Source: Pseudisothecium myosuroides
Taxonomy: Eukaryota; Streptophyta; Bryopsida; Hypnales; Lembophyllaceae
Direction: 5' to 3'
Assembly: GCA_951799445.1 (NCBI GenBank)
Contig: OX637294.1
Coordinates: 20,485,452 to 20,549,451, forward strand
Length of the DNA: 64,000 bases
This document shows positions 11,392 through 58,929 of the stretch, piece by piece. Position numbers and translations under genes: made by a program. The notes beneath the pieces were generated by a model that saw only the letters and a program-made list of their open reading frames with translations, ran no database searches and was not told where the DNA came from. Numbering within the stretch: the first letter of the stretch is position 1; each line of letters begins with the position of its first letter.

Positions 11392-11395
11392 TTAA

Positions 11396-12309
11396 CCCCT
11401 AAAGGACCGGCATGCATTTTTTGGCTGTATAGAAATTTTGGGCAGGTACGTGTGACTAGAGATTTCCATATTTTAAGCTGAAATTTTAATAGAAGGTGGG
11501 CGCAAGGAATATCTTCATATGCACTAAATTTCATAACATTTGGACATAGGAGTCAAAAGTTATGGCCAAATATGTTATTTTTTTTTGTAACTGGGCAGTC
11601 CGGGCAGATAAAAAAAAACACTTTTTTCAAAAATAAAAATTTGAAATTGGTTTTCTAGATTTATATAAACGTGGAAAGGTTTGAATCATTCCATTTTGAC
11701 CAATGAGTCAAAAGTTATGAGGGTTTTTAATTTGCGGGCAGTTATAGATTCTTTACTCTGAAATAAACTTTGAAGTTGTTTATTTAACTCAATTTTTAAT
11801 ATTTTTTGAAAAAATCATAGGATGAAGGTTGTTTATTACAACATTACAACCATTGGGATTGACATTTTTCAATTCCATAATTAAATTCTTAACAATTTAG
11901 TATTTTGGATCATTCTCTACTTCTTTCTACTTACTATTTTTTTGTATATGTTGTACAATTCCAAATGATTTGAAAAAATTTAAGCATGTAGCCAACTTGT
12001 TTAGGAAAAAAATTTAAAAGAAGCACCACCATTTTGGACATTTTTTCATGCAAATGTGACCTTGTGAAGTGCAGCTGCCCTGTTTTTCGCAGGGACAAAA
12101 AAAGGATTTTTGCCAATTCAAATGCTAATATCTTCCAATCCGCATAGTGGAAAATTCTGAATTTTTTTCCACATCTTCTAAAACTAGTTTACTATAAGAT
12201 CCTACGGTTACAAGTGTCAAAAAAGTTTTTTTCAAAAATTTGGTACTTCTATTAAAAATGGCAGTTTTTGAGTGTTTTCGGTGAAAACATAGTCATGGAA
12301 CTTTAGGGG
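11396..12309. mobile_element. TTAA-flanked non-autonomous element, family A, copy 1
   Basis: The 914-bp element starts CCCCTAAAGGACCGG and ends ACTTTAGGGG. It is flanked by TTAA at 11392-11395 and 12310-12313. It is nearly the same along its length as 17035-17958, including the internal CTGGGCAGTCCGGGCAG stretch and the right-hand GGCAGTTTTTGAGTGTTTTC. No transposase reading frame is present. Termini beginning CCC at a TTAA duplication point to piggyBac-like or Sola3-like mobilisation by an enzyme encoded elsewhere. Confidence 0.85.
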
Positions 12310-12313
12310 TTAA

Positions 12314-13079
12314 GGATACTCCTATTGGAAGGACCACTCATATTTTAAAGAGTGCTACTTCTTCTAAAATAAAGGCATTTGAGTCCCCCTCTAAATAGGA
12401 GTAACACTCAAAAGAAAAATTTGGAATACATAATTTAATTTTTTTAAATTAAAAACTAAAAGAAAACATTTTTGCATTGACTACATTATTATTAGCTGCG
12501 CTGTAAGATAACATTATTAAGTGAGTCTAGACATTTGCCATAATAGATGGCTTGAGGCAGTTGTAGCTATCAAATCTCTTAATCTCAAGTAAATGAAGAT
12601 ACACACATTATATTGCTTTTTTGACCAAGACTTTTGATCTTCATGGATTTTCGAGGAGTATATTTTGAAAACTTGTGACTCTTAAAGATTAATAATGTTA
12701 GAAAGATAATACCATTAGTTCAAAGAGTCTAATAAAGTATTTCATAGTACTCTAATAGAATTACTGGAGATCATTCATCTTGCCTATTTTGTTATTGCTA
12801 TGACTTGAAATTGTCATGTAGGAAAAAATTGTATTATTAAAAATACATTTTTTTATCCATTGAAGATTTTCCGCCATAGACATATTTTATACTCCAATTA
12901 ACTCATCATAAAATTTAGTTTTTTTTTAAACCCTATTTATTTGAAAATTTCTTAAATGAATGAATAATAGAAGCAAGCCTAAAATAAGAATTAAATATAA
13001 ATAATTTTTATGAACTCTCTAGATAGAAGACTCAACATACCAAAATCTATTATTCTAAAAATTGGGATGGAAATGAACT
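12314..13079. other. intergenic AT-rich DNA
   Basis: No gene or clear repeat recognised. Confidence 0.4.
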
Positions 13080-14012
13080 AAAGTCCCATGAAAGGACTTG
13101 AAGGTTTGGGCAAGTACCCATGATTTCAATTTTTAGCAAGACCTTTTGAAACTTTTTTTTTCAAGATAAAAAAACTAATTAGCTTTCTAAAAATCTAATT
13201 TTTGTTTCAATCGGGGCCTGGGAGAAAAACTTATGCCACAATAACCCTAAAACAAGCAAGGGGCAGGTAGTAAAAATTTTAAAATTTTAAATTAAAATAA
13301 TTTTTTATAAAAACTATTTATTATAGATTATATTTTTTTCTATGTAGAATGATTTGATTCATTCTATTTGATAAGTAATGTGAAAGCTATAAAGCTTCTT
13401 GTTTTGTAGACAATGTTAACAAATTTTTGAAAAAATACTGTATTGGATCCATTTTTTAATTCAATTTTAATTATTTTCAAAAAAAAATTTGCTCATGGTT
13501 TAGTTTGTTTTTAAGAACAATCTCACTATTGAAATTAGTATGTTTCAACTCCATCTTAGAGCTATCAACAATTCAAATTTATTTGCTATCTTGTACCTTC
13601 TTTGACTTAATAATTCTTTAAAAGAATGAAAATTATAGGACAAAGGTTTGAAATTTTTTTTAGCTTTGAACTCAATTCTTTAGCATAAAAAAAATTTATT
13701 TGACAATCTATGGTACAAAAAAATTTAATTAAGAGGGTTCAAAGCCTTATAAATTTATAAAGCTAGGAGCCAAGAAACTTGTTTTCTTCACTTTAAACTC
13801 TTACATCTTGTAATCGATAAAGTAAAAGTTTTTGAAATTTCTTCCAGACATTTTCATACTAGTCTAGTGCAAGCTACTACAATTGGATATGAAAAAATAA
13901 ATGTAAATAAAAAATATATATATTTATAATTGAAATTTTTTTTGTTTGCAATGAAAATGGCAATTTTGAATGATTTTTGATAGAAAAATGACCTCGCATT
14001 AGGACTTTAGGA
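13080..14012. mobile_element. decayed TTAA-type element (family B-like)
   Basis: The left part (GGACTTGAAGG, GGGCAAGTACC, CTTTTGAAAC followed by a T run, then a GGGGCCTGGGAGAAAAACTTATG-type stretch) is a diverged version of the start of the copy at 45665. The right part ends AGGACTTTAGGAG. Length, about 930 bp, fits the family. Both TTAA flanks are lost and the ends are approximate. Confidence 0.45.
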
Positions 14013-14261
14013 GGGTACTGGTAATATGGCAAAAAGCACAAAATGAATTCAAACAATGACTCATATTGCAACCTAAAGATTCTTTACAATAATCAATAAG
14101 ACCATGTGCACCCCTTTATATACATTTCAAACATGTGATACTTAGATTTATCATATATTACACACAACAAATTGGTAATAACTTCTTCCTCCTAAACTTT
14201 GATGTAAGACTTAAAATTAATGCCTTAAACCTTTAAATTGTACCAAATTTAGAGATTGAGG

Positions 14262-14525
14262 TTGCAACAATGCTAATGTGTGAGCGTAGAGACATGAACC
14301 TATGAGCCTTGAACGTAGTTGTAGGTATGTACATGTGTTCAACCATTCAAAGGTGTTTATATCATATATTTCTATAATATAGATACACTATAACATGAAA
14401 AGAGTCTATAATATAGGTACCTATAACATAGACACCTATAACCATAGAAGGTGTCTATAATATAGACCCTTAGGTTTATGGTCTTATAGATTCTATATTC
14501 ACATGCTAGCACTCTCCAGTGAGGT
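14262..14525. repeat. dispersed TIR-like repeat K, copy 2
   Basis: Second copy of the repeat at 6413-6662, with the same GGTTGC start, GTGAGC motif, CTATAATATAGGTACCTATAA core and GCTAGCAC end. Confidence 0.5.
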
Positions 14526-16634: not shown

Positions 16635-16638
16635 TTAA

Positions 16639-18467
16639 CCCCTAAAGAACAAGCATGTTTAGAGGCCCAAAACTGCTTCAAAATACTCGTCCCCAAGGCA
16701 GGGTCAAAATCTTCATCAATATTTACATTTTAACAAATCCAACCGTAAGATCCTTTGGTTAACTTGTTCTAATACGTTGTTTAATTTTTAGAATGAATAT
16801 CCCTACCAATTGCAAGTTCAATGTGCCTAAACTTCAAAATGAAGGCTTTTCTACCCCTTTCCAAAAGATGACGTTTTGTCTTTCAACATTTTTAGAGAGA
16901 AACATGTATCTCTTATAACTTGTTTGTTTTAGCCAACATGTTGAAAATGAATTGAAAACATATAAGTAAAATCTTGAACAAAAATACTTTCATATTCATC
17001 TTTTTAAAAATTGTAATGTGGAAGGTAATAATAACCCCTAAAGGACCGGCATGCATTTTTTGACTGTATAGAAATTTTGGGCAGGTACATGTGACTATAG
17101 ATTTCCATATTTTAAGCTGAAATTTTAATAGAAGGTGGGCGTAAGGAATATCTTTCATATGCACCAAATTTCATGACATTTGGAAATAGGAGTCAAAAGT
17201 TATGGCCAAATATGTTATTCTTTTTCGTAACTGGGCAGTCCGGGCAGATTAAAAAAAATAAAATTTTTCAAAAATAAAAATTTGAAATTGGTTTTCTAGA
17301 TTTATATAAACGTGGAAAGCTTTGAATCATTCCATTTCGACCAATGAGTCAAAAGTTATGAGGGTTTTTAGTTTGCGGGCAATTATGGATTCTCTATTCT
17401 AAAATAAACTTTGAAGTTGTTTATTTAACTCAATTTTTAATATTTTTTGAAAAAAATAAAAATAGGATGAATTTTGTTTATTACAACATTACAACCATTG
17501 GGATTGACATTTTTCAATTCCATAATTAAATTCTTAACAATTTAGTATTTTGGATCATTCTCTACTTCTTTCTACTTACTATTTTTTTTGTATTTGTTGT
17601 ACAATTCCAAATGATTTAAAAAAAATTTAAGCATGTAGCCAACTTGTTTAGGAAAAAGAACTCAAAGAAGCACCACAATTTTGGACATTTTTTCATGCAA
17701 ATGTGACCTTGTGAAGTGCATCTGCCCTGTTTTTCGCAGGGACAAAAAAATGATTTTTGCCAATTCAAATGCTAATATCTTCCAATCCGCATAGTGGAAA
17801 ATTCTGAATTTTTTTCCACATCTTCTAAAACTTGTTTACTATAAGATCCTATGGTTACATGTGTCAATAAAGTTTTTTTTTCAAAAATTTGGTACTTCTA
17901 CTAAAAATGGCAGTTTTTGAGTGTTTTCAGTGAAAACATAGTCATGGAACTTTAGGGGATAAATGAAATAAAAACTAATTTGCTAATAACTTTTACATGA
18001 AACTGAAAATTCTTAATTTTAATGGTGAGAATATTTTAGTAAACAATTAGTACCCTTTATTTTTACTTGAAAATTTTCAAAATTGAGAACAAAAGGCAAT
18101 TTTATATGGGTTTTTTTACCTTTATAGCCCGCAAAATAAAACTCTTCATAACTTTTACTTCATTATTCAAAATCAAATGGTTCAAATGTTTTTTAGTAGG
18201 TATCAATCTAAAAAATTCCAAAAAAATAACTAATATTTTTTTTTAGAATACTAGTACATTTTTTGTTGTTTGATTTGGCATTGAATTTTTTTTTTAAACT
18301 TCTAACTTTTCTAATATTTATCAGAATGATATAAAACAAAGCTTCACACGTAGATTATGATGAGTAGCATCCATCCTGAAAAATTCATTCAAATTCCAAG
18401 TTATAAAGTCAATAGAAGCTGCCCAAGTTATCAAAAGCCCAAAGTGGGTTCCTTGATACTTTAGGGG
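16639..18467. mobile_element. TTAA-type element interrupted by a second one
   Basis: The left end CCCCTAAAGAACAAGCATG follows TTAA (16635-16638). The right end TACTTTAGGGG is followed by CTAA (18468-18471), probably a mutated TTAA. A family A element with its duplication (17035-17962) sits inside. Removing it leaves about 901 bp, close to the 907-933 bp of the other large copies, which supports the pairing of these two ends. Confidence 0.65.
17035..17958. mobile_element. TTAA-type element, family A, copy 2, with ATAA flanks
   Basis: 924 bp, near-identical to 11396-12309 and in the same orientation. The 4-bp flanks match each other but read ATAA (17031-17034 and 17959-17962) rather than TTAA. 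That confirms a 4-bp duplication and shows that the target preference is not absolute. It is nested in 16639-18467. Confidence 0.85.
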
Positions 18468-18471
18468 CTAA

Positions 18472-22541: not shown

Positions 22542-22556
22542 GATGACAGAGTCGGT

Positions 22557-24116: not shown

Positions 24117-25658
24117 TTAAGCTCTACGGTACTCATCCCCACAATCTCCGATCATATCTTGCAAATCCCTTCCTCTGCTAGTAACGCTCATAATTCTATT
24201 GTTGTCGTCCTCATCCAGCTGCAGCTTGAAAATGGCTTGAGAATCTTTGATATGCTCTTTGAGTCCTAATCTGACGCCAATCATAGAGCCCGCTACCGCA
24301 GGTTGGTCGAGAATGTACCTTACAGCCACAGTGGACATGGACACCCCATGCTTCTTCGACACCGTCTTCACCTCCCTCAGAAGCTCCTGAAACAGGTTCC
24401 ATCCACCCCAAGCGTCCACCATTCGCTTGTACTTGTTAAGGGACGGAGTGTCCAGAGGTGGACCAGCAAAAGGAACGGAGATGTTGGCATCCAGAAATTT
24501 CTCCGATAACAAGCCGCCCATCACCGTCCCATATGTGATTAATTTCACTCCCATCGTGTTGCAAAGATCCGCCATGTGAGCCTGCGGACGCATGTCTACC
24601 AGGGAATGCTGCACTTGGTTGCTCACGATCGGGATTTGATTCTCCAGAATCAGCTGCAAGCGCTTGGTGTCGAAATTGGTCAATGCCAACGTCTTGATCT
24701 TGCCCTCCTCTTTTAAATCGGCCAAGTGCTTTAAAGCGTCGAGATAACCCTTGTCCGCGTAGTCCCACCAATGGAACTGCAGCATATCCAAGGCCTTCAC
24801 GTCCATGCGTTTCCGGGAGCGGTCTATGTTGGATTCTACGTACGCTCGAGTCATCTTCACTGGCGGAGGTACCCATTTGGTTAGCCCGCGCACTTGCGAT
24901 GCAGGCTCGTCTCCCCGCTCCCGCCTCACCCTATTAATGAAGAGCCCGTATAAGTCCTCGGCTGGCCCGTCTGCGACATTATCAAAGCCAAAAGAACCAA
25001 GGCAATGAGCACATGACAGGTCCGCAAATTCGTCCAAGTGTCTGCAATTTCAACATTTCAGAATCAAACCGACATTTAATATCGAACCGAACTGTCAAAT
25101 TTATGCTTGCCCGTGTAATTAGCTGCAGCACAGTCTTTTTGAAAAATTGAGAAGCGTCCCTAAAGCCAAGTATCAAGATCTCCATAGCCAGGTTCCAGTG
25201 CAGCCAAGTATCATAGAGCTCCAAAGCCAGATTCAATCCAAGTAGAGATATTACTCCCCGTCATTGTTGAAGAATGCAGAGATACAGGGACATGCAAAAT
25301 AGGAAACGGAAACTGGCTTACAATGATCAGCCATGTCGAAAGTATCAAAGCCGGCATTCACATAGCGCAGCATGGCGTCAACAGCATCGTCTCGCTCAAT
25401 TCTGCCCCACCCACCGCTGGTCTGCCACATTCCATTAATCACCCGGCAAATCTCCAGCCGATCATCGCCACTGGAAACCACGGCGTGATCTGCTCGCTGC
25501 TGCTCTGCAGTGTCGACGTCCGCAGCAACGGTGGTGGCCAATCTCCTCCCCACTCTACACCTGAAACTCACGGCGCTCCGGTGTACCAACTTCGCTCCTG
25601 AGAGCACTGCCATGGACGACGCCATGGGGTGCCGGGAAAGAGTGGAGGCGGACGCCAT
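24117..25658 (-). CDS. plastid-targeted aldo/keto reductase (NAD(P)-linked oxidoreductase)
   Basis: Complement of exon 1 25322-25658 and exon 2 24117-24970; the intron (24971-25321) is GT-AG and splits one Tyr codon. The product is 396 residues. It belongs to the aldo/keto reductase superfamily, which reduces carbonyls with NAD(P)H in a TIM barrel. The tetrad is intact: D108 and Y113 (FDMADHYG), K144 (LTKWVPPP), H179 (LQFHWWDY). The sequence matches the plant subfamily with SNQVQHSLVDMRPQ, YGTVMGGLLSEKFLD, MVDAWGGWNLFQ and a C-terminal IGDCGDEYRRA, which I recall from an uncharacterised Arabidopsis member. The first 45 or so residues are rich in Ser, Ala and Arg with few acidic residues, as in a chloroplast transit peptide. 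The ATG at 25658 sits in a good GCCATGGCG context. The substrate cannot be told from sequence. Confidence 0.95.
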
Positions 25659-26735: not shown

Positions 26736-26763
26736 CAACCGTGTATCGCTATTGTGGACATTT

Positions 26764-27075: not shown

Positions 27076-27079
27076 AAGA

Positions 27080-28261
27080 TGAAATCACATGTTTGCTATA
27101 TTTTGTAAAATTTCCAAAAATTTGGAATTACTGTAATTTTTTAAAGAAAAAATGAAACAAATTCATATCAAATACAAAATATACTCAAAAAAATTGAAAT
27201 TTTCATTGGAGATGTAGAATATAATATATAACATTATGGTATAAATCAAAGTTACCGCACCATTCTATATTTAAAAAATCAGCAAACCATGTTTATAGGC
27301 CTAAGATTCATATTGCTATAAAACATTGAAGTTTGAATTTTTTCCAAAATTTCCAATTGGAGTAGAAAGTGAAATGGATAAGCTTCATTTCATTAGTTGG
27401 ACTCAAATTCAAAAAATTCAATATCACTTTTATGACTAAAATTCGCAACAAGAGTAAATAGCAAGAAATGGTCTAGATACACTACAAAGGTGATATGTGG
27501 ATTAACCCTTAAAGAATGTTTAAGTGACCGTGAAAATCATCCATTTGGATACCATGAAAATCATTGGATTAAAAAAATGGAAAAGTACTCATTGAAAGTT
27601 AAACTACTGTAGAAGACCTCTCCTTTTCTTACACAAAAGGATTCTCTGTCATTCATCAAACACAAAATGTCTGAGGCGTCGTTCATGGGTTAAGCATCTT
27701 GTTCTTTAGAAAAGTCAATAAGATCATAGTAAGGGACTTCGCAATATTATTCTTCAAAAATGTACTCAAGTATCCTCCTTATGAATAAATTGGTTCAAAA
27801 AACAATTTTTTCCATCTTCCAGTCTCAGCTAAAGTCATTCATCAGACACTCAATGTTTGCAGCAACGATTTTAGGGTAAATTCTATTTTTTATAAATTTT
27901 TAAATTAATATTTACAACTTATAGAAGATGTAATTAATCTTTGAAAAATATATTGAATTTTTTTAAATTCATATTTAGTTGCAAAATGATAGCATATAAA
28001 GTGAAGAATTGTGAAGTTTAGGTATAAAACTAGATTTTAGAGCTAATTCCTAATATACAAGGCCCAAAGTTTAAATTGCAAAATAATATTGATTTAAAAA
28101 AATTCAAATTCTCCAATTGGAATAGAATCCAATTGATAAGACTTAATAAGACTTGTTTCAATAGTTTGACTCAAAAAAATCATTTTTATGGATAAAATTC
28201 AAATCAAGAGTAAAGAACGAGACGTGTCAAAAATACTTTGTAGAAGTGATTCGTGTATTAA
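27080..28261. other. AT-rich DNA with two diverged copies of one unit
   Basis: The stretch leading up to 27505 and the stretch leading up to 28261 are diverged direct repeats (TCCAATTGGA(A/G)TAGAA, then TTTTATG-TAAAATTC, AAGAGTAAA, and both end ATTAACCCTT). No gene is present. The second TTAACCCTT may be the left end of a further TTAA-type element. Confidence 0.5.
27506..27689. mobile_element. TTAA-type element, family C, short copy
   Basis: Starts CCCTTAAAGAATG after TTAA (27502-27505); ends TTCATGGG before TTAA (27690-27693). The interior (AAAGTACTCATTGAAAGTTAA, CTACTGTAGA, ATTCATCA-ACAC) is the reverse complement of part of the element at 42923-43367. It holds one internal unit where that copy holds two. 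The right terminus is weak, and related sequence continues to about 27876, so the right boundary is uncertain. Confidence 0.5.
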
Positions 28262-30291: not shown

Positions 30292-30295
30292 TTGA

Positions 30296-31235: not shown

Positions 31236-31737
31236 TTAACCCCTAAAAAAACACTCAAAACTGCCATTTCTATAGCAAAAAGTTAAAAAAAATTGAAAAA
31301 CGTTTTTCTTACACATCTAACCATAAGATCTTACACCTAATTAGTATGAGAGTGTGAGGAAAAAATTTGAGAATTTTTGACCGCACAGGTTGCAAGATAT
31401 GTGCGTTTAAAGTGAAAAAAACAAGTTTTTCATCACATTGCGGGACTAGATTTTTTGACTTTGAACATTTTAACTTAAAATTTTTGCACTACAGAGTTTT
31501 GAGCTTTAAATCTTTATAATAGAGAATTGAGTTGAGAGTCTAGGAAAAAAAACAAAATTCAAAAAAACTTAATTATCATTCTTAAAAAAATTGTTAAGTA
31601 GAAGTGGATAGAAGATAGAAGGAAAATCTAAAATATTCATATATTTTAGATGGAATTAAAATGCACTAATTCCAATGGTGAGATTGTTCTATCAACGTAA
31701 CATTTTGTAGTAGTCACTGGCTCTGCCATCTCCCGAA

Positions 31738-31805
31738 CAAAATGGTGTGGAATATACCACACCATTTCATCCGAGGGATGAAATTGTGCGGTATATTCCG
31801 CACCA
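31738..31805. repeat. two adjacent hairpins with related stems
   Basis: AAATGGTGTGG-AATAT-ACCACACCATTT forms a near-perfect hairpin. After a short CATCCGAGGGATG dyad a second hairpin follows, built on GTGCGGTATATTCCGCAC. The two hairpin sequences resemble each other. Confidence 0.7.
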
Positions 31806-32035
31806 AATCAATAGTTACGGGGATAGTTGTTAATAATTGTTAGAACTTAACTTGGTGCCCGCACCGCAACTGTACACTACAAGTAGTGGCAAGTTAAAAA
31901 TTTCCAAGTAAAATTGAAAACTTAACAATAGGAACTTTAAACAAAATACTAATAAATTCATTGAATGAGATTATTGATTTCTTTGTTATTGTAGAATTAC
32001 CTCACTTTGAATTTGAATCCATTTATGCATTATGC

Positions 32036-32670
32036 TTTTGAAGTGAGAAGACAACTCTTTATATGCACATGGAGTGGTAGGAAGTAGAACAACCCATGTG
32101 GGATATATAAATTAGAATTTGTAGGTTCTCATGCACTCATAGTTAAGTCAAAAACAAAGAACTGTATTAAAAGTAGAATTTTAGACCTCATTTAGGCATA
32201 GTAAAATAACTTTTCTCAAAAAACTTTGAACTAAAAAAAGTTGGTAAATGAGGATGAGTTTCACCTCCAAAAATCCGTTTGTGATTTTGAATCTCCAATA
32301 AAAAGTTATGGACAAAATTTGAAGAGGATTTTTAATAGACATTTCCTTTAACACTTTTAAAAATCCATTCCAATCACTCTCCGAAATTTGTCTATAGATT
32401 TTGATCGGAGATTCAAAATCCCAAATGGATTTTTAGAGGTGAAACTCATCCTCATTTACTAACTTTTTTTAGTTCAAATTTTTTTAAGAAAAGTTATCTT
32501 ACTATGCCTAAATGAGGTCTGAAATTCTACTTTTAACACAATTCTTTGTTTTTGACTTAACTATAAGTGCATGAGAACCTACAAATTCAAATTTATTTAT
32601 CCCACATGGGTTGCTCTACCTCCTACCACCCCATGTGTATATGTAGAGTTGTCTTTTCACTTAAACACCC
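32036..32670. repeat. large imperfect inverted repeat (foldback), arms of about 260 bp
   Basis: Left arm 32036-32296 (AGACAACTCT, ACAACCCATGTGGG, TAGTTAAGTCAAAAACAAAG, CCTCATTTAGGCATAGTAA, GATGAGTTTCACCTC) is matched by its reverse complement in 32407-32670. The match continues with gaps into the 110-bp centre. A transcript across it would form a long double-stranded stem, a typical source of small RNAs. No coding region is present. Confidence 0.85.
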
Positions 32671-33775
32671 AAAACAAGTTATTGATTGCAAATACTAATA
32701 ATGCATTAGTGTATTACTCATTGGACTATTGGCCAACATCTTTCACTACAAATATTTGTTGGTTTGTATGTCTGAGGTAGTTTGCTCTAAAAGCAAGTGG
32801 CCTCTTCAAATCGACCTTATATTTAGGTCTGAAATGGACATTAGGTGATCCTTAAATGGACCTCTCAAGCCATTGAGAGAATCGAGAGAAAAACATTATT
32901 TATTGCAAGAGCCAATCATTGGCCTTCATTTACTAAAATCACTTTAGAAGTTGCAAGTGGTCAGATTTTGGAAGACCTAGGGTCACAAATAGGTGCCTAC
33001 AACAATTTTTTTTGAAAAATCATAAGTAATTCAAAAATGATTTAAAAAATATGAAACCACTTGTGTAACGTTCACACCCATTTTTCTTTCTCTGAAAAAT
33101 GATCCAAAAATATTTCTATTCATGGAAACTTGTGAAAAAGGCAAATCAACCCTTAAATGGTCGCTATTAGGCCATACTACCTTAGTCCTAAAATTAAGAA
33201 AAGAAAATGGAACATACCATAATGTATTGTCACTATCCCGGTAATGGAGCTTACATTAATTATGTGGGGATGAAAGTTGTGGATGAGGACTCCAGAGAAG
33301 AAAAGGCAAACTCTCTAAAGGCTACTAAATGCTATGAAGTAAACTAAACCATGCAAAAAAAAAATTGAATTCAAAAATGAATCCTACAAGTTATTTGTTT
33401 CAAGAAGATACTCTGACTGCCCGAAAAACAAGAATGTCCATAACTTTCTCATAACAAATCCAAATGAAATGATTCAAAGCTTTCCAGATAGACAAAAATA
33501 TAATCTATAAGAAAAAAAATTATATAAGAAAAAAATTTAACTTTTGCAATTTTTTTTTGCTACCCGGGCTGCCCCCCGTCCCCTGTTTTGAATTTATTTG
33601 GTCATAACTTTTGTTCCCGGGCACCAATTGTGGAAAAAATTATATTCCCATACAGCTTATCAGTTTTTCTATCTTCAAAAAAAGTTTCAAAAAATCAAGA
33701 CAAAAATTCAGCCGGTAGGTACCTGCCCCAAATCGCATTTGTCCCCCGAAGGGACAACGGTCCTTTAGGGGTTAA

Positions 33776-34640: not shown

Positions 34641-35053
34641 TGTAATGTTTGGTAAATGGGAGGTTCTTTTTGCAAGAGGCCCTTGACATGTATAGGCATT
34701 ATAACTTAGCCCCGTCTTCTATTTTGTGGATGGAGAAAGGACCATTTTGCAAGATGCCTTTGATATAGGCATTATAATTAAACCTCACCATTTATTTGGT
34801 GGGTAAATGCTCCACTTACAGGAGGCCTCTATCAAAGGCATTATAACTAAAGCTTAATTTTGTGATTGATAGGTATTCCCTTTTGCACAAAGCCCCTGAT
34901 AAAAGCATGACAATTTAAACCTTACTTAGTGATTGGTGAGGGGTTCCTTTTGTAGGATGCCCCTGACATAGGCAATTTAATTTAAGCTTCACTTAGTATT
35001 TGGTGGCGGAGGTCCCTTTTACCAAGCGAACCAAGCAAGGCATTGCAATTTAA

Positions 35054-35274
35054 CCCTTAAATCCTCCAATTTCCATATTCTTGACAATGAATAGAGGTAT
35101 TGAAGGCACTATTTTGCCTAGCCAACTTCTCATTCATCCAATGTAATACTTGAATTTTAAAAAGGACAATCTTTTTTTATGATCAATTTTGTGAAATTAC
35201 AATAAATGATTTATCTTTACAAAGATATAAGTAAAAATGTGTAGTAATTTAAAAATGATTAAGGCATTAAGGAA
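35054..35274. mobile_element. TTAA-type element, family D, inserted in the satellite
   Basis: 221 bp starting CCCTTAAATCC after TTAA (35050-35053) and ending before TTAA (35275-35278). It is related along its length to 48734-48936 (TCCATATTCT(T/A)(G/A)ACAATGAA, GGACAATC, ACAAAGATATAAG). The satellite consensus ACAACTTAAGCC is split exactly at its TTAA, so neighbouring units show the empty site. Confidence 0.8.
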
Positions 35275-35659
35275 TTAAGCCCTCAATTAGTGTTTGGTAG
35301 TGGTGGGTTCCTTTCACATGAAGCCCCTATCATAAGCATTTTAACTTAAGCCCTACATAGTGTTTTAAAAGGGGTCTTTTTCACATGACGCCTTGGATAA
35401 AGGCATGACAACTTAAGCCTCACTCACTAATTTGGTGGAGGGGCCCTTTTGGAGGACATCCAAGATAAAGGCATGACAACTTAAGCCTCATTTACTGATT
35501 TGGTAGAGGGTCCCTTTCATAGGACCTTCTTAATAAAGACATGGCAACTTAAGCCTCATTCAGTAGTTTGATGGGGGATTCTTTTTGCATGACGTTTTGG
35601 ACAAAGGCACAACAGCTAAAGCCGCATTTAGTGATTTGATGGAGGGTCCCTTTTGTATT

Positions 35660-35822
35660 CACTAGAAGAAACCCGCATTGGTCTAAACAAAAAATGTGGG
35701 CTGAAATTTGTTGAGAATCATGTTTCCAATGCTGGAATCCCAGAATTTTGCGTTGGAAACATGGTTCTCAACAAATTTCGGCCCACATTTTTTGTTTAGA
35801 CCAACGCGGGGTTCTTCTAGTG
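35660..35822. mobile_element. 163-bp palindromic MITE with CACTA-type ends
   Basis: Starts CACTAGAAGAA and ends TTCTTCTAGTG. The arms, about 70 bp each, are nearly perfect inverted copies (TTGGTCTAAACAAAAAATGT and its complement; TTGTTGAGAA), separated by a centre of about 20 bp. The CACTAG terminus suggests the CACTA (EnSpm) superfamily, but I cannot see a clear 3-bp duplication. It interrupts a satellite unit. Confidence 0.75.
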
Positions 35823-36640
35823 AGATCGTAGAATGTTTGGACAAAAGCAATACTCTAAACAAAGGTATGACAACTAAAGCCCCATATAGTGATTTGATAG
35901 GGGTCCCTTTGATATGGCATTCAGGACAAAGGCATGACAGCTAATGCTTCATTTAGTGATTTGGTGGGTGGGGGGGCCCTTTGCAAGTCGTCCCAGACAA
36001 AAATACAATAAATTAAGCATCATGTGACATTTATACTTACTCAAAAGTGAATGAGTCAAAAATACAATTTTTTAGGGGGTCCCTTTCGCAAGACCCAAAG
36101 ATAAAGGCATGATAGTTGAAACCTTGTTTAGTGATTTGGTGGCGTCCCTTTTGTAGGATGGATAAAGACATGACAGCTTAAACCTCATTCAATGTTTTAG
36201 GGGAGTTATTTTTCACACCACGCTCTCAACAAAGGCATAATAGCTAAAGTCTCTATTAGTGATTTGGCAGTGGGTTTTCTTTTGCTAGATGTATTGTATA
36301 AAGGTATGACATCTAAAACCTCGTTTATTGATTTGGAAGGGGGTTCCTTTTCGCTGAACGTGTTGGATAAAGGCATGACAGCTAAAGCCTCATCTAGTGA
36401 TTTGGTAGGGATTCCTTTCGCAAGATGTCCTAGACAAAGGTATGACAACTAAAGCCTCATTTAGTGATTTGGTGAGGGGTCCCTTTTGCTGGACGTGCTA
36501 GACAAAAGGCATGACAGCTAAAGCCTCACCTAGTGATTTGGTGTGTGGGGGGTCCTTTCGCAAGACGTCTTGGACAAAAGTATAATATCTTAAGCATCAT
36601 GTGCTGTTTACTTTTACTCAAAAGTAAGTGAGTAAAAAAT

Positions 36641-37899
36641 ACGATGAATTTGATATAGAAATACTAAATTTTAGGTAGCATGTATAGAAGATAATTTTAA
36701 CTTTTAGTTTTGGAAACTCGATGATAGGTATCTTGGTAAGGCTTCCAAAGTAATCTATGACTTTTAGAGGAACAAAGCCAACCAGCATAGCCATGTTATG
36801 TAAGTAGTAGAACTTACATCTAGAAAAAATAAAGTAGCTTCACTCACAAGTATGTATAAGTACAAAATACTGAAAATATTTGTTGGCCAAGTCACTTGAC
36901 TTGCTTGTGAGAATGAGAAAATGCCCTATCACCACCCAGAGTATCCCTCAAAGCATTATACCGCCCTCTTCTACGGACAATTTTACACATTTTACTACAA
37001 AACTATATAAGTTATATCCAGAAGAAAGCAGTGGATTTTTCCAGCCCTCAATACATTTTAAACCCACAGTAATTTTGAGCCCCCAGTAATTACCCTTTCT
37101 GGAGCCCTGAAATGGGTTCCGTGAATATCCAATTGCCTTTTCCCAAATGGAAACTGAATCCTAGAGCATAAAAAGCAGCTTGAAATCCGGAAGAAATCTA
37201 ATTTTCTGCCCAAAAAGACAAAAAGGAAAAAAGACAATAAGGAAAAAAGATTAAAAACAAAAGGAAAAAAAAAAGAGGGTAGCCCACTACGGTTGAGCTG
37301 TAACGTACGGTACAGGTATAAATTCGAATTTTTCGTTCAAATACTGTGGGCTTCAAATAGTGTGGGCATTGACCCTATACTTCTTCTTATTGTATTGTAT
37401 GGTGTATTTGAATGAATGCATTGGCCGGGTATTCTCACTACTGGTCTGTTACTAATTACAGCCCTGTATGGTAGGTGGTTCAAACTTCAAACCACGGCAC
37501 CCACGGCGTTAATGGTGTGGCCTTCCTAAAATCTACCAATATTACATCTACGAATCTCCTCAGTTCATCCACCCATATATAAACATCACGGAACTGTCCG
37601 TCTCGCGTACATCACGTCGCCTTCAAAAAAACCTAGATAATCTAAATGTCGTGAAAACTCAGTTATTTTCAAAAAAATCTAATGATCGCGAGAAATATCT
37701 GAGAATCGAACATTTTAGCTCCTAAATTTTTATCTACGAAATAGGTACATTCTATTCGGATGCGTGAATCTAGGAGAAGCGCGATTTGTGTGAGAGAGTA
37801 CGGCTTGACGGGGGTTGGCGATTCATGTAACTCTTGTGTACATTTATTGATGTACCTATCATTTTCATTTATTCATCTAACGACAGTGTACATAGTTTG
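36641..37899. other. intergenic DNA
   Basis: AT-rich, with an A/G-rich run at 37215-37275. From about 37300 the composition moves towards that of a promoter. No gene seen. Confidence 0.4.
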
Positions 37900-42918: not shown

Positions 42919-42922
42919 TTAA

Positions 42923-43367
42923 CCCTTAAAGGACGCCGCCATTGTTTTCGGCTGATGAATGACAAAGAATCCTTGTAACTTATGTAGGACAAAAGTGTAA
43001 CTATTCATCTTTGGAATTTTGTGTGAAAAAGGGAATAGAGTAGTTTGACTACCAATAAGTGCTTTTGGATTGTTTTAAACCAGTGATTAATCCAATAAGG
43101 ACGCCGCGGACCATAAGTGTCCGATGAATGATAAGGGATTCTCCAATGTAGGATAGAACTACAACTATTCATCCTTGGAGTTTTTTGTGGAAAGTGGAGA
43201 ACATCTACAGTAGTTTGACTTCCAATGAGTACTTTTGGATTTTTTTATTTCAATGACTCTCACGGTTATACAATGCATGATTTCTAGGGTCACCCCCCGC
43301 ATCCTTACAGAGTTAATATGGTACCAAAAGGATTGATTTCCACAATCACCAATCTGTCCTTTAAGGG
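42923..43367. mobile_element. TTAA-type element, family C, with internal duplication
   Basis: 445 bp with 12-bp termini CCCTTAAAGGAC and GTCCTTTAAGGG in perfect inverted order, flanked by TTAA at 42919-42922 and 43368-43371. The left part is a tandem duplication of about 170 bp: AAGGACGCCGC, CCGATGAATGA, GTAGGA, ACTATTCATC and AGTAGTTTGACT appear in both halves. The short copy at 27506-27689 has one unit. Confidence 0.85.
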
Positions 43368-43371
43368 TTAA

Positions 43372-43975: not shown

Positions 43976-43979
43976 ATTA

Positions 43980-44609
43980 ACCTTGGATGGACGTGGCCCA
44001 TTCACCAAAGTAGTATGAAAGTTTTATTTTTTTATTTTTCAAAATCAAACACTCTAAAAAATACTCATTGCAAATTGTCTCAAGAAGAAAACCTAGTCAA
44101 TCCAAGGCCATTCTAAGAAACAAATCCCATAGTTTTGCAAGTGGGCAAGGGATTGATTGGTTGAAGCATATAGTAAGTGGATACGGTCAAGTGAAATTAT
44201 TGTTTTTCTAATGTTACATATTTCACTTGATTGCAAGGCTATTAAAACAATCTTGCATTTGCTCCAATCCTTGTGAAATTAGTAAGCATATTTTTAACTA
44301 TTTATAATTACATTTAGTCAAACATGACAAACTTTCTTTAGTTTAAATTTGAAATGTAGTCCCTTGAAATCATTTTGCACCGGAATTTTTTTTCCCAAAA
44401 ATACTCAACTTTAATTGAAGATACTTCAAAATCTATATGGTAAAAGCTTTTGAAAATTAGATGGAACTAGTAGATTAATTTGATAGTAGTGAATAAGATT
44501 CTACGATTAGATTTTTCAAAAAGAAATTTTAAGAAATTTTATACTTTCATTCAAAAACGGCAGTTTAGAGGTCATTTTGGAAGGAGGACCTCCATTGGAC
44601 ATATAGGGG
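43980..44609. mobile_element. TTAA-type element, probable
   Basis: The right end ACATATAGGGG precedes TTAA (44610-44613), and inside it AAAAACGGCAGTTTAGAGG matches the subterminal GGCAGTTTT motif of families A and B. The left end CCTTGGATGGACG after TTAA (43976-43979) is a weaker match. About 630 bp. Confidence 0.5.
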
Positions 44610-44850
44610 TTAATGTTATTAAATTAAATTAAAAGAAGTCTTGTGTAAAGAAGAAATGGATAAGATTTTAGGACAAGTCTATGCAATTTGAGAATACAAG
44701 TAGAATGCATGACCATTGTATAGCTTCTCAGACATGTGGATAGAACAATATGTATTGATTTAGATTTGGTGTGCTATATATACAGTGACTCCCAAAAGTA
44801 GTTGGCCACCCTAAAAATCGCTCTTATAAATTGAAAAATTGGAATTTTAA

Positions 44851-46694
44851 CCCCTAAAGGTTTTTAACTATGTTTTCACCAAAAACGCTCCAAAACTGCC
44901 ATTTCTAAAACTAGTGCCAAATTTTAGAAAAAAACCATTATTGGACACATGTAACCGTAGGATCTTGTAGTAAATTTGTTTAAGAAGATGTGGAAAAAAT
45001 TTCAGAATTTTCCACCATGTGGATTGCAAGATATTAGCATTTGAATTGACAAAAATCCTTTTTTTGTCCCTGCGAAAAAACGGGCAGCTGCCCTTCACAA
45101 GGTCACATTTGTATGAAAAAATGTCCAAAATGGTGGTTACTCTTTGGATTTATTCTTCAAGGCAAGTTGGCTACATGCTTGAAAAATTTCAAATCATTTG
45201 GAATTGTACAACATATAGGAAAAAAATAGTAAGTAGGAAGAGGTAGAGAATGATTCAAAACACTAAATTGTTAAGAATTTATTTATGGAATTGAAAAATG
45301 CCAATCCCAACGGTTGTAATGCTGTAATAAACAATCTACACCCAGTGTTTTTATTTTTTTTCAAAAATATTAAAAATTGAGTTAAATAAAGGACTTCAAA
45401 GTTTATTTTAGAGTTGGGATTCCATAACTACCCTCAAACTAAGAATCCTCATAACTTTTGACTCATTGATCAGAATGGAATGATTCAAAGCTTTCCACTT
45501 ATATGTAAATCTAAAGAACCAATTTCAATTTTTTTTTTTTTTTAAAAGTGATTTTTAAAGAAGTTTTTTGCTGCCCAGGCTGCCCGCCGAGCAATGAAAA
45601 TAACATATCATGCAATAACTTTTTAACAGTGTAGTCAAAAGTTATGAAAATTGTTGGGCCTTAACCCCTAAAGGCCCAAAGTCCCCTCGGGGGACACTTG
45701 GGATTTCGGGCAGGCTCGTGCGACCTGAAATTTCGACCTGATTTTTTGAAACTTTTTTTGAACATAGGAAATCACATTAGCTTTCCAAAAATATAATTTT
45801 TTTTCAATCTGTGCCCGGGAAAAAAAGTTATGCCGCCTGAAGTCAAAAAAACAGTTCACCCAGCAGAAAAAAAAAACTTTAAAAAATTGAATTTTTTTTT
45901 TTTTGATTTTTTTTCTCAAAGATCATGTTTTTGTCTATATTTGAAGCTTTGATTCAGAATGAGAAAGCTATGGATAATCTTGTTTTTCGGGCAATCTAAG
46001 CGTCTTCTTCAAAAAACAACTTATAAAATTCATTTTTGAATGCAATTTTCGAAATTTTTCAAATTTTATTTTTTGAAAAGGTTAAATTTGTTTGCAAGAA
46101 CAATCCCATCGTTGGGATTATGGTCTTTTAATTCCATCTAAGAGCTATTGAAGATTTAGTGTTTTGTTCAATTTTGGACCTACTTCTACTTAACAATTTT
46201 TTTATATGTGAAAATCAAGTTTTGACATTCTGAAATTTTTTTACCTGACTCTCAACTCAAATGTTCAACATAAAAAATTTTAACTTTATGGTGTGTAGTG
46301 CAAAAAAACCCCACAAATGGCTGTCAAAGTCATCTGAAATTGCAATCCAGAGTTCAAAAAAACTTCTTTTTCCAACTTCAAACGCTAATATCTTCCTATC
46401 CGTACGGTCAAACTTCATGAAATTTTTACCACATGATTTGAGACAAGTGAAGTACAGAATCCTACGGTTAGATTCTAAAAAAAAAGTTTTTTTTGGTTTA
46501 GGGAGTGATCGCAGCAGAAATGGCAGTTTTCAGTGGTTTCGAAGCCAGAAAATGCCTTGGGCCTTTAGGGGTTAAAGCTACTCCTCGGGAAAATGTTGTG
46601 TGAAAATTTGAAAGAAAAAAAATAAAAACTCCGCTCGTAGTGAGCTGCCCAAAAAAGCTATATTCTCAAAAAAACATGTTCGGTGCTTTAGGGG
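44851..46694. mobile_element. TTAA-type element, family A, reversed, itself interrupted
   Basis: Starts CCCCTAAAGG after TTAA (44847-44850) and ends GTGCTTTAGGGG before TTAA (46695-46698). Its left part is the reverse complement of the right part of 11396-12309 (CCAAAACTGCCATTTCTA, ACAAGGTCACATTTG). A second TTAA element (45665-46571) is inserted in it; without that the length is about 933 bp. Confidence 0.85.
45665..46571. mobile_element. TTAA-type element, family B, innermost of the nest
   Basis: 907 bp, CCCCTAAAGGCCCAAAG to CTTGGGCCTTTAGGGG, with matching TTAA at 45661-45664 and 46572-46575. The termini CCCCTAAAGGCCCAA are perfectly inverted. It is a reversed relative of 57738-58651. A perfect small dyad, GTCCCC-TCG-GGGGAC (45681-45695), lies just inside the left end; the other family B copies keep a mutated version. 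Confidence 0.88.
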
Positions 46695-47544
46695 TTAAAG
46701 TGAAATTTAGACATGTTGTTGTACAAAAGGAATTCTACCCTCATGTGTAATTTCACTTTTAAATGGACTATGTTTAGACCTATTATTAATTGAATGAAAT
46801 TTCAATGGAAAAAAAAACTTTTTGTGAGAAGTCAAAATGTTCCATTTCTTTTTATAGGAAGAATGTACATCTTGACAAGAATCACATGTTACAAGTTTCA
46901 TGAATTTTGGATTTTTATTGATTGAGATCTAATTGACTGAAATTTGATCCCAAAATTTTGTTTTTTTAATTTTTCACTCTATAAATTGCAAAAAAATAAA
47001 ATTAAAAATTAAAATAATGTAAAATAATTATATATATCAAAACATATTTTTTTGTAATTTATGGAGTGAAAAATAAAAATAAATAAAAATTTGGGGTCAA
47101 ATTTCAGTCAATTAGATCTCAATCAATAAAAATCCAAAATTCATGAAACTTGTAACATGTGATTCTTGTCAAGATGTACATTCTTCCTGTAAAAAGAAAT
47201 GGGACATTTTGACTTCTCACAAAAAGTTTTTTTTCCATTGAAATTTCATTCAATTAATAATAGGTCTAAATATAGTCCATTTAAAGTGAAATTACACATG
47301 AGGGTAGAATTCCTTTTGTACAACAACATGTCTAAATTTCACTTTAAAATTCCAATTTCTCAATTTATGAGAGCGATTTTTAGGGTGGCCAACTACTTTT
47401 GGGAGTCACTGTAGGTCATTGGACTTGACCAAGCAAGAAGACAAACTTTTGCCATTGTTGTACACGACAATTCATGGACTTTGACCTTATATATAAAATA
47501 TACTAAAAGTATCACATTCTGACGACAATTCCTTATTGTTTTAA

Positions 47545-48113
47545 TCCCTTAAGGACCATGAATGCAAATTTTGAAGAATGAATGAACAGAAACACATTCC
47601 AAACTCACTGAAATGCATTTTTTCATCCATCATTTTTTTTTATAATTCTTGTATTAGTTCTTTTACATTTGTATGGTATAGATCATAAAGATTTTGCTTT
47701 ATACATATTCTATAATTCAAAGGGTATTGGTAGGTCTAGCCTCAAAAAATAACTTTTTTCAGTTCAAAAAAATGTCCCTTCAAAAACAACTTGAATAAAA
47801 AAATAAAATAAAAATCTTCAAAATTCACTATGATTTGAACTTAGCATTTTGAACTTATAAAAAAAAATTCTTTTAAAAATTATAAATATTCAATCTACAA
47901 TTGATCTTAGAAAGAATTTTCAACTTCTGGCTTCATATTTTATTGTAAAATATTGGTTTGTATAATTGTTGATCTAATTATATAGATGTGATCTATAAAT
48001 TATATTTTACAACTATTTTTTGAGAGCCATAATTAAAATATTGTTCTAGGTTGCATTTTATAATAGATCTTCACAATTTTGGAAGTTTGGACACCCCCCT
48101 GGTCTTTTACGGG
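47545..48113. mobile_element. TTAA-type element, family E
   Basis: 569 bp starting TCCCTTAAGGACC after TTAA (47541-47544) and ending TGGTCTTTTACGGG before TTAA (48114-48117). The interior does not match the other families by eye. No coding region. Confidence 0.65.
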
Positions 48114-48117
48114 TTAA

Positions 48118-48729: not shown

Positions 48730-48733
48730 TTAA

Positions 48734-48936
48734 CCCTGAAGCGCTCCAACATCCATATTCTAAACAATGAACAGAGGGCTTCAAGGCAATGTTTAGTCCA
48801 ACTAACTTACTTGAATCTAGAAAAGACAATCTTCCTTCATGACCAAATTCATAAAATTCAAGTAAATGATGCTTCTGTACAAAGATATAAGCAAAAATGA
48901 GCAAAAATTCAACAAAAGTATTGAGGCATCTAGGGG
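48734..48936. mobile_element. TTAA-type element, family D
   Basis: 203 bp starting CCCTGAAGCGCTCC after TTAA (48730-48733) and ending GGCATCTAGGGG before TTAA (48937-48940). Related to 35054-35274. Confidence 0.75.
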
Positions 48937-48940
48937 TTAA

Positions 48941-55044: not shown

Positions 55045-55333
55045 TTTACCTAGGTTCAACATTTACTTATATAATTCAAATCAAAATTAACCAAAATAAC
55101 TTAAGTTGCTTCTAACCTTATAAAAAGGAATTCATTTTCAAAATCTTAACATGTGGGTGTTTTAATAGAAGTATTCAGATCACATGTTTTAGTGTTCCAA
55201 ACTTGTTTCATCCAAATAAAGTTAACATCTATATAAATACAATCTCAACTTGGTGCATTGATGAATTTTTAATCAATTTTGAAGAAACCAAATTAAAAAG
55301 AATTTTAAAAGAATTTTAAATGGCATTGGGTCA

Positions 55334-56027
55334 TTGCAAGAAACACCTGCCGGTTTTGGCTCAAAACAGCCATAGTACTCAATATCTATGACTTTTGGAA
55401 TAATAATTTTTTTAAATGTAATTAAATATGGATAATTTGTAAAGCATTCAAAAACTTTAAATGTGAAAATTTAAGCCTAGCAAAATTTATCTCTTAAAGT
55501 TATGCACAAAATCTCTTAAAGAGTGTTGAAAAATACAAGAAAATAGATATTTTAGAATTTGATTTTTAGAAAATAGTAAAAGATTCTGTAAATTCTATTA
55601 AATAAAGACATTTTTTCTAACTTAAAGATGCTCCTTCTTAATCAGTTTCATCTTTGAAAAAATAAAATTGTGTTCTATGCATTTGCACAAAGGTAGTGCA
55701 GTTTGAGCACATGTGGAAGGTGGAAAATTTACTATTTTTAGAAAATCTTTAATAAATTTGTGAAACTTTAGTAGAAGTCCTTGTATCCCAATTTTGAGCT
55801 TTAGATTCGCATTTTTTGGTCAAAATAGTACTAAAAACCTCCAAATTGGCTAAGGTAGAAATAGTAAAATAATTTTAAAAAAACTTGAAAAATTATTCAA
55901 CATTTGAAACTACCATATGTACCTTCACTTCAAGTTTTATTAAAAACAAACAAACAATGCAAAAGTTATAAGCAAAATACCACATGTCCAAGGTCAAGGC
56001 GACAAAAACAACAAGTGTTTCTTGCAA
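55334..56027. mobile_element. MITE I, copy 2
   Basis: Ends TTGCAAGAAACACCTG and CAAGTGTTTCTTGCAA, flanked by TCA on both sides (55331-55333 and 56028-56030), a possible 3-bp duplication. About 694 bp, roughly reversed relative to copy 1. Non-coding. Confidence 0.65.
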
Positions 56028-56289
56028 TCAGACACCCCTTTAGATTTCTTTTGTGATTTTTCAAATTAGATTCTTTTGAGGGCAACTTGTCAATTTGAAC
56101 TTAAAATTTCAACAAGAGAGTTTCAACAAGATGAGTTTGAATCTTGGTTTATTTTTTAAAAACATGATGTAAAACTATTTGCACTAATCAATTTCATCCA
56201 TAAATATTTTTGTTTCATATTCTTGCTTGATGATTTGTGCAACATTCTAAACCTACTTCTACACCAATTTGAAAAATTGAAAACTTTCC

Positions 56290-56500
56290 AAATTAAAAAT
56301 ATTTATTGCAATTTGAACTTTGAGCCTATGACTATGGACTATTGATTTTCTAATTAGAAAATGATAAAGAACTTTTGTTTACACAATGATTGCCATTTAT
56401 TCTACTATATACACCCATGACAAAGTATTTAAAATTTGAAAGTACACATTGTACGGAATATTTGATATGAAATTTATTCAATAATTCACCATAATTTCAC
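56290..56500. repeat. dispersed repeat, second copy
   Basis: Resembles 43660-43920 (ATTGCAATTTGAAC, TACACCCATGA, TTTGATATGAA). Ends are not definable by eye. Confidence 0.4.
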
Positions 56501-56546
56501 CATTTAAAAAAAAACATAATCTTTCAATCCTAGAAAATATAATATA

Positions 56547-56600
56547 CTCCCTCCATTCCAAATAGATCTTCCTATTGGCCTCGGGGTTGGGACTTATTGC
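56547..56600. mobile_element. isolated Stowaway-like terminus
   Basis: CTCCCTCCATTCCAAATAG follows TA (56545-56546), as in Stowaway MITEs. I find no matching inverted end downstream, so it may be a fragment. Confidence 0.4.
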
Positions 56601-57733
56601 ATTTTTTTCAAACACCTGAAATAACCGCCTAGTATATTGGAGGGTATTATTTCTAAAACTGAGTATTAAATTGACCCTTTAATTAAAAAAACAACTAAAT
56701 TTGCCCATTTTTTAGTACCCTATATTTCATTTAAATGAAGGGCAAGCAAATCAGTTAGTACCCTATTTTACTTCTAAATTTTTAGCTTCCACTCATTGCA
56801 ATTGTTTGGGAGTGTTTCTTCATAAGCAAGATTGAATGGCATAAACAAAGCTTGCATTCACGGAGTTGTTATAAGCAAACTACTATTTCAATGCGGCTAG
56901 ATTGGGAAGAAACAAAATCAAAATCAAGACTCGTACACACAAGCATCTGCAGCACTAACAAGGCCAACGAGTTCTAGCAATTGCAATGAATCCAAAAACA
57001 AAGCATTGCAACAAGGCAAGACAAGCAACCCATAAAAACCATAAGAACCTAACAGAAACACCTGCATCAAACATAGCACAAAGCAAATGAAAGAACTGTT
57101 ATTAGAAATGAAATTAGTGTTAAGAAACACAAGTTTCTGTAATTCCCTCACTCCCAACATTTACAAAAACTGGCATTATTCACAACCTAACTGTAGAGCA
57201 TTAGAATTTGGAAAATTGAATTCAATCTATCCTAATTACAGTATTTGCCTTCAAATACATTCTCAATCTAAAAACTCAGACACAAATCCCTTCCTCAAAA
57301 AACTACAAATGAATTCATGATGAACACTCCATCAAGAATGCAAAAAATCGGTCCAATGCACTTCAATCCACCTACTGGGTGCCCTGCAATCTGCACACAG
57401 CACGCACATTTGCATTCAGGTATAGAGCTAAATGTCCCCAAAAAATTTGAACTACTACAAGTGATCAATCTGCAAATTCGCATTCAGATGTACATCTGAA
57501 TGCCAAACTAAAAAAGGGAATGAAAAACTTCAGCCGATTCTAATTACAAACCAGAAATTCAAAACAAGAACAAGGTTCGTAGTTCCATACCTGTAGATTT
57601 GACGCCACCTCCCTCACATTCAGATCAGGATCTGAATGCCAAAAAAAAGTTAAGAGTCCATGGGCGCTTAATTACCTACCCTTGGTAAAGAAGCAAACAC
57701 GACTAGGTTCTTAGCTTTTATCCACTTTTTGAT
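56601..57733. other. intergenic DNA
   Basis: Slightly less AT-rich, with several short open frames (for example 57317-57499) but no recognisable gene. Confidence 0.35.
57481..57638. repeat. pair of related perfect palindromes
   Basis: A 22-bp perfect palindrome at 57481-57502 (half CATTCAGATGT) and a second at 57617-57638 (half CATTCAGATC, 2-nt centre). Both are followed by CCAAA and an A run. Confidence 0.8.
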
Positions 57734-57737
57734 TTAA

Positions 57738-58651
57738 CCCCTAAAGGACCGAGGCCTATTTTCTGCCAAAAAACACTCAAAACTGCCATTTCTTTAGCAA
57801 AGAGTAAAAAAAAAGTTTAATTGTTTTTTCTCCCACATCTAACCGTAAGATCTTGCACCTAACTAGTATTAAAAAGTGTGGAAAAAATTTCAGAATTTTT
57901 GAACGCACAGATTGCAAGAAATTTACTTTTAAAGTGGAAAAAACAAGTTTTTCAGCACATTGCGGGACTGGATTTTTTGACTTTGAACATTTTTAACTTA
58001 AATTTTTGCACTACATAGTTTTGAGCTTTATATTTATAGTGGAGAATTGAGTTGAGAGTCTAGAAAAAAAAATTCAAAAAAACTTAATTATCATTTCTTC
58101 AAAAAATTGTTAAGTAGAAGTAGGTACGAGATAGAAGGAAAATCTAAAATATTAATATCTTTTAGATGGAATTAAAATACACTAATTCCAATGGTGAGAT
58201 TGTTCTAGCAAGTAAATTAAACCATGAAATTTTATTTTTTTGAAAAATTGCAAAAATTGCATTCAGAAATGAATCCTACAAGTTATTTTTTTTCAAGAAG
58301 ATGTTCTAACTACCCGAAAATCAAGAATGTCCGTAACTTCCTCATAACAAAGTCAAATGAAATGAATCAAAGCTTTACAGATAGACAAAAATATAATCTA
58401 TGAGAAAAAAATATTTAAAAAAAATTCAAAATTTTGCAAAATATTTTTTGCTGCTCCGCGTTCCCACGCATTCCAAGAAATGGCATAACTCCTCGCTCGA
58501 AGGTCCGATTTCAAATATTTTTTTCCGCCACGTATCTCTCTCAATTCTTCATATTCACAAAAAGTTTCAAAAAATGGTATGAATTTGTCCCCCCATAGGT
58601 ACATGCCCTAAGTCCCATTTGTCCCCCGAACGGACAATGGTCCTTTAGGGA
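57738..58651. mobile_element. TTAA-type element, family B, uninterrupted copy
   Basis: 914 bp starting CCCCTAAAGGACCGAGG after TTAA (57734-57737), ending TGGTCCTTTAGGGA before TTAA (58652-58655). Thirteen terminal bases match in inverted order apart from the final base. It serves as the reference for the split copy at 31240-33771. Confidence 0.85.
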
Positions 58652-58929
58652 TTAAGGGGTATTGTGAGTGCGGTCCACTATGCCTTCTAAGCAATGGATC
58701 TTGCTAATGTTTCCTAAGTGTCATGGATGGGCAAAAGAATTGCCTAGAATGCGAGTGATGGGACTTCCAAGCTAATTGTCAATTATCAATGATCACGGTA
58801 ATCTAATGGTGAAATCCTACTGTCCTAACTACCTATCCAATGTCGAGGGTGGACTCGGTAGTTGGTGCCATTTCTAATTACCCGAATTAACTGAAATGGG
58901 GACCCCTATGTTCCTTCCATGAACCCCTA

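Follow-up and report, generated by a model that had tools for sequence, protein, structure and literature searches.

What kind of transposon has supplied a moss genome with short elements that start with CCC and lie between two copies of TTAA? The question is raised by a 64,000-bp stretch of Pseudisothecium myosuroides DNA (the window; positions 20485452-20549451 of contig C8 in a 388-Mb assembly of 222 contigs), in which the original prediction, made from the sequence alone, had recognised a burst of non-autonomous transposons bearing the signature of piggyBac. The elements of the window are almost certainly miniature inverted-repeat transposable elements (MITEs) of the piggyBac superfamily, located in the moss nuclear genome and moved in trans by the full-length piggyBac elements that this genome also carries.

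The PF13843 profile was used to search the genome for a coding partner. Among the 899 candidates obtained, 116 were scored and all of them exceeded the cut-off (best E 1.7e-83). Matches were present on every one of the contigs C1-C11, which measure 16.9 to 55 Mb apiece and together make up about 380 of the 388 Mb, and none was found in 14 control genomes. Full-length elements of 5.4-6.6 kb were recovered, with CCC ends within TTAA, a DDD motif and a Cys-rich C-terminus, and six types of them were read as follows:

PBa, 5,408 bp, TTAA followed by CCCCTCAGGGCCGG at its ends, the ends fixed by a pair of copies with unrelated flanks
PBb, 5,624 bp, TTAA followed by CCCCTAAATGTCC at its ends, the ends fixed by a pair of copies with unrelated flanks
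L043, 776-6333: full-length type PBc, single locus
L044, 132-5749, reverse strand: full-length type, single locus
L045, left end ambiguous (317 or about 749): full-length type, single locus
L046, 698-7260, reverse strand: full-length type PBf with CCCTAGAGC ends, single locus

The catalytic DDD motif was found in all six types, its three D columns being invariant or at least 90% conserved among 42 related database proteins, and all six have Cys/His clusters, in a Cys-rich stretch, at their C-termini. Terminal inverted repeats are perfect over 12-15 bp in PBa, PBd and PBe and shorter in PBb, PBc and PBf. The closest solved structures are those of bat piggyBat (1.7e-28) and moth piggyBac (2.5e-20), and it is with this superfamily (PF13843) that the moss elements share a DDD transposase, a Cys-rich C-terminus, short inverted ends beginning with CCC and a TTAA target (PMC10813416, PMC7351741). 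All the piggyBac features testable here were observed, namely the PF13843 domain, the DDD motif, the Cys-rich end, the inverted CCC ends and the TTAA duplication. The piggyBac reading of the original prediction is borne out by these proteins, which carry both PF13843 and DDD and are enclosed in elements whose CCCC ends adjoin TTAA.

The ends themselves are far too numerous to be accidental. Fourteen TTAACCC[CT]TAAA ends were counted in the window, where 200 sequences simulated with a first-order Markov model gave 0.065 on average and never more than 1, and TTAACCCCTAAAGG was found 21,067 times as an exact match genome-wide (10,581 + 10,486), against a single occurrence (1 + 0) of the reversed-pattern control. 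A chance origin is ruled out because both counts lie far above their controls. Genome-wide, 12,717 of the 14,269 exact CCCCTAAAGGACC ends (89.1%) are preceded by TTAA; with this proportion, and with a partner that is piggyBac, neither of the outcomes named beforehand as contrary (copies lacking matched TTAA flanks, or an autonomous partner from a superfamily with another target duplication) was encountered.

The window elements total about 8.5 kb, or 13% of the window (coordinates summed, with the degenerate ones and the host 16639-18467 counted), and are listed together with one empty site:

11396..12309, plus strand: family A piggyBac MITE, TTAA on both flanks
about 13144..13900, plus strand: degenerate family B copy, ends undefined, 65% over 768 columns, missed by the original prediction
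16639..18467, no strand assigned: degenerate CCCCTAAAG-ended element of about 900 bp, host of 17035-17958, TTAA on the left and CTAA on the right, weak
17035..17958, plus strand: family A MITE, ATAA on both flanks, 94.6% to 11396-12309
27506..27689, minus strand: degenerate family E copy, TTAA on both flanks, 78% over 116 columns
31240..33771, minus strand: family B MITE of about 0.87 kb, with 1.66 kb inserted at about 31701-33360, TTAA on both flanks
35054..35274, plus strand: family C MITE of about 220 bp, degenerate right end, TTAA on both flanks
42923..43367, no strand assigned: outer element with CCCTTAAAGGAC ends, host of 43091-43312, TTAA on both flanks
43091..43312, plus strand: family E MITE of 222 bp, nested in 42923-43367, TTAA on both flanks
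44034..44609, no strand assigned: repeat with a right end that reads, on the reverse strand, CCCCTATATGTCC followed by TTAA, no TTAA at its left end, membership uncertain
44851..46694, minus strand: family A MITE with a family B MITE nested inside, TTAA on both flanks
45665..46571, plus strand: family B MITE, nested in 44851-46694, TTAA on both flanks
47344..47347, no strand assigned: single TTAA in the right palindrome arm, the empty counterpart of the 44851-46694 insertion site (131/134 bases)
47545..48113, plus strand: family D MITE of 569 bp, TTAA on both flanks
48734..48936, plus strand: family C MITE, TTAA on both flanks
57738..58651, minus strand: family B MITE, TTAA on both flanks

The nine TTAA-flanked elements and the one flanked by ATAA that had been proposed were recovered with the same coordinates and 4-bp flanks, and several entries of the earlier list were read differently in part. 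The TTAA flanks of 42923-43367 and 31240-33771 stand, and the former turns out to be composite, with the family E element nested in it, and the latter to be a shorter element enlarged by an insertion. Two of the entries that had been ranked as weaker were also revised: 16639-18467 reads as a degenerate element that was entered by 17035-17958 (295 bp are alignable to family A, at 66% identity), and 43980-44609 keeps its right end and has an unsupported left boundary, as the other genomic copies listed start at query position 55 or later. The larger part of 44851-46694 can be aligned with positions 131-914 of family A (83%), and 35054-35274 and 48734-48936 form one family (C) of about 200-220 bp. 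At a first look across the genome, family A had 9,161 candidates, family C 917, family D 2,759 and the element 42923-43367 4,748, the listed matches of the last lying mostly in its family E part; 40 candidates were scored for each of the four. The 1.66-kb insertion in 31240-33771 is an almost perfect foldback with arms of about 300 bp (32038-32344 and 32359-32665), and no TTAA was seen at its edges.

Duplication of TTAA on insertion can be read directly from the window. A palindrome carries the element 44851-46694 in its left arm and, in its right arm, the same site with one TTAA; the joined flanks match the empty arm at 131 of 134 bases, and the filled and empty arms differ by exactly one TTAA. 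This comparison demonstrates the target duplication. The family B element 45665-46571, nested with TTAA on both sides in the family A element, offers a second case, of which the palindrome is the cleaner proof because family members have diverged around the nested junction. In the wider genome, ten separate full-length copies of family A were compared, seven of which had equal flanks (six with TTAA, one with ATAA), as had both family B copies compared; TTAA stands on both sides at all four family D loci read and at three of the four family E loci read, the exception being L054 with its ambiguous left end. Beside these cases, two family A MITEs in the same orientation adjoin each other at L048:583-2422 with one common TTAG between them and TTAA on the outer flanks. 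A C precedes the left TTAA in all four full-length copies with both flanks read (L039-L042), which may be chance or may reflect a broader target preference. The palindrome itself (44783-47411 without the inserted 44851-46694) has CAGTGA/TCACTG ends with TA on both sides and resembles a Tc1/mariner or pogo foldback MITE.

The MITEs look like the ends of full-length elements from which the coding middle has been removed. For the two main families of the window, positions 1-211 and 543-914 of family A align to the two ends of L043 (76% and 74%), and positions 1-96 and 608-907 of family B to those of L044 (93% and 77%), so the longer relative with the same ends that the original prediction had suggested looking for is a piggyBac element. 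Families A and B would accordingly be descended from L043- and L044-like elements by loss of the middle. Copies of the full-length elements are much alike: two PBa copies on different chromosomes, with unrelated flanks, are separated over 5,417 columns by 1 substitution and 2 gap columns, and a PBb pair in the same situation over 5,633 columns by 1 substitution. Among five PBa copies, each on a chromosome of its own, no more than 3 substitutions and 4 gap columns were counted (4.1 kb compared). Both types have moved recently, because near-identical copies occupy unrelated sites. Seven family A copies, picked by the search for their closeness to 11396-12309, show a pairwise divergence of 4.5-8.3%; the spread of family A is moderately old rather than fresh, because its copies differ by about 6.6% on average. 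The term burst calls for a qualification, since family A, which is the best sampled of the MITE families, is of moderate age and the autonomous pairs compared are near-identical.

By the mechanism known for piggyBac (PMC7351741), the transposase would act in trans on the MITEs by binding their ends, would cut through a TTAA hairpin intermediate that leaves a seamless gap, and would integrate the element at another TTAA, which would then stand on both sides. Several observations weigh against the piggyBac explanation as a whole. Exact parents of the MITEs were not found among the full-length elements read, L043 and L044 being relatives, and the match between MITEs and full-length elements is 73-93% and confined to the ends. 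The window lacks a transposase gene of this kind, and part of the transposase frames elsewhere contain stops. TTAA is absent before 10.9% of the exact CCCCTAAAGGACC ends genome-wide; three of the ten family A copies have flanks that are unequal by one base, and the flanks of family C are mixed. Family members have diverged where the nested element joins its host, and the nested evidence is weak when taken by itself.

Sola3 and Kolobok also use TTAA, and the MITEs might be moved by one of these superfamilies instead. The moss Physcomitrella is known to contain Sola elements, which make 4-bp duplications (PMC10741241, PMC9033089). However, the full-length elements that have the same CCCCTAAAGG ends and common subterminal sequence encode piggyBac transposases, the family for which the genome was searched, which makes a Sola3 or Kolobok source very improbable. 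A 3-bp TWA site of PIF/Harbinger would overlap TTAA, and Tourist-like MITEs of this superfamily could have been taken for the present ones if a TAA or TTA duplication were mistaken for TTAA. PIF/Harbinger elements are frequent in plants (PMC10741241), but 17035-17958 has ATAA on both sides and requires four bases, one whole TTAA distinguishes the filled palindrome arm from the empty one, and the coding partner is piggyBac; the duplications are thus the 4-bp ATAA and TTAA and not a 3-bp TWA, and this source is less probable still. Contamination of the assembly by animal DNA, which the eight animal proteins among the named relatives might suggest, is just as improbable and was ruled out by the spread of PF13843 matches over all of C1-C11, by the MITEs on both sides of a moss-like gene in the window (an aldo/keto reductase exon at 24117-25037 that matches Ceratodon purpureus at 93% identity and Sphagnum at 79%) and by the separate clade formed by the moss transposases. 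The identities of this exon point to a moss host, probably one other than Ceratodon, and a set of eleven chromosomes would agree with a moss of the Hypnales.

The place of these piggyBac transposases within their superfamily was analysed with a midpoint-rooted tree of 89 domains, in which some animal rows are long-branched. The moss rows represent 18 of the 30 loci L009-L038 together with L042, near-identical or less distinct loci having been omitted by choice, and the database rows represent 70 of 75 proteins, five of fewer than 200 residues having been dropped. All 19 moss transposases fall into one clade with 39 database proteins without organism names (100/100, branch 0.59), outside which stand the eight animal sequences that bear names and another 23 proteins without organism names. 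The organism-named relatives found are these eight, all animal; none of the 75 carried a plant name, though named moss proteins exist in the database, in a search that reaches only proteins sharing short exact words. On this tree, a moss clade apart from the named animal piggyBac sequences appears to be new. Differences from animal piggyBac are the moss host, the separate clade and the very abundant MITEs.

A further difference is an open reading frame (ORF1) that lies upstream of the transposase and is conserved in many moss copies, whereas animal elements are described as single-ORF elements (PMC10813416). ORF1 is common to PBa, PBb and PBc (L043) and, weakly, PBf (L046), with tblastn values of 9e-16 for PBa-PBb, 6e-9 for PBa-PBc and 3e-6 for PBb-PBf. 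At least 59 of the 116 scored transposases have it on the same strand within 6 kb upstream (gaps of 1.3-3.5 kb), against a mean of 0.125 and a maximum of 2 under random placement, and it was found in no case upstream on the opposite strand or downstream. The test took in 150 matches of one search and the first 69 of 150 of another, so that 59 is a lower bound; beside the other 57 transposases, the L017 and L018 lineages included, there was no ORF1 among the matches listed. No match over the curated cut-off was obtained in Pfam (best E 0.022), none in NCBIfam for the three ORF1 proteins scanned, and none up to E 5 among solved structures; three protein relatives of ORF1 were found, without names. 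The frame overlaps another frame downstream in PBa and PBb and does not in L043. ORF1 is part of many of these elements and would be either a helper protein in its own right or the transposase gene's first exon. A conserved frame without a known domain beside this transposase seems to be new, and as an addition to an already well-studied enzyme it can be put to the test. PIF/Harbinger elements with a Myb-like second ORF are comparable as plant DNA transposons with an extra ORF beside the transposase (PMC10741241); they differ in transposase family and target duplication, and the moss ORF1 has no known-domain match.

We tentatively propose, as a possibility that falls somewhat short of being probable, that mosses possess a deep piggyBac clade of their own which acts as a two-protein system, the DDD transposase and ORF1 (with its 'ILGW..R..FP...ELWPD' end) travelling together and the latter aiding transposition, targeting or escape from silencing, with recent movement and with short derivatives that number well above ten thousand in the 388-Mb genome.

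The view that TTAA-specific systems are not usual in plants held in part. Reviews of 2022 and 2023, in the passages concerned, give six and seven plant superfamilies with terminal inverted repeats, Sola included and piggyBac omitted (PMC9033089, PMC10741241). PiggyBac was nevertheless among the superfamilies reported from all groups studied, land plants included, in a 2015 survey (PMC4438587), is entered in a C-fern table with 1,230 copies and 122 kb (PMC6890710), is named among plant superfamilies in a 2024 review (PMC10794571) and, according to a summary, has been isolated from plants too (PMC10813416); Sola, as mentioned above, is known in Physcomitrella. These plant listings weigh against full novelty. 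They name the same superfamily for land plants, as table entries or lists that, in the parts concerned, come without autonomous elements or target-site evidence (PMC6890710, PMC4438587, PMC10794571). Among the best-matching open-access titles and starts of abstracts, a partial coverage of the literature, no autonomous piggyBac element in a moss was found. A parallel for the MITEs is provided by the CMITEs of corals, which are likewise families tied to piggyBac-like autonomous elements; their host is an animal and their hallmark is a conserved internal region of unknown origin (PMC2872659), whereas the moss MITEs match their full-length relatives at the ends.

Since piggyBac forms an abundant repeat system in this moss with near-identical full-length copies, a native plant piggyBac becomes directly testable. 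Such a system would be of practical interest because insect piggyBac already serves in plants, where it has been applied for precise marker excision (PMC10905368). Annotation based on the usual list of plant superfamilies would probably leave TTAA MITEs unclassified.

Two other features of the window were recorded. An open frame of 465 aa on the plus strand (2303-3700) encodes a Tc5/pogo-like transposase (DDE_1 3.4e-21, HTH_Tnp_Tc5 2.7e-7), and a degenerate tandem array with a unit of 67-69 bp extends over 34834-36645, where the MITE 35054-35274 and a short inverted repeat (35659-35823) interrupt it.

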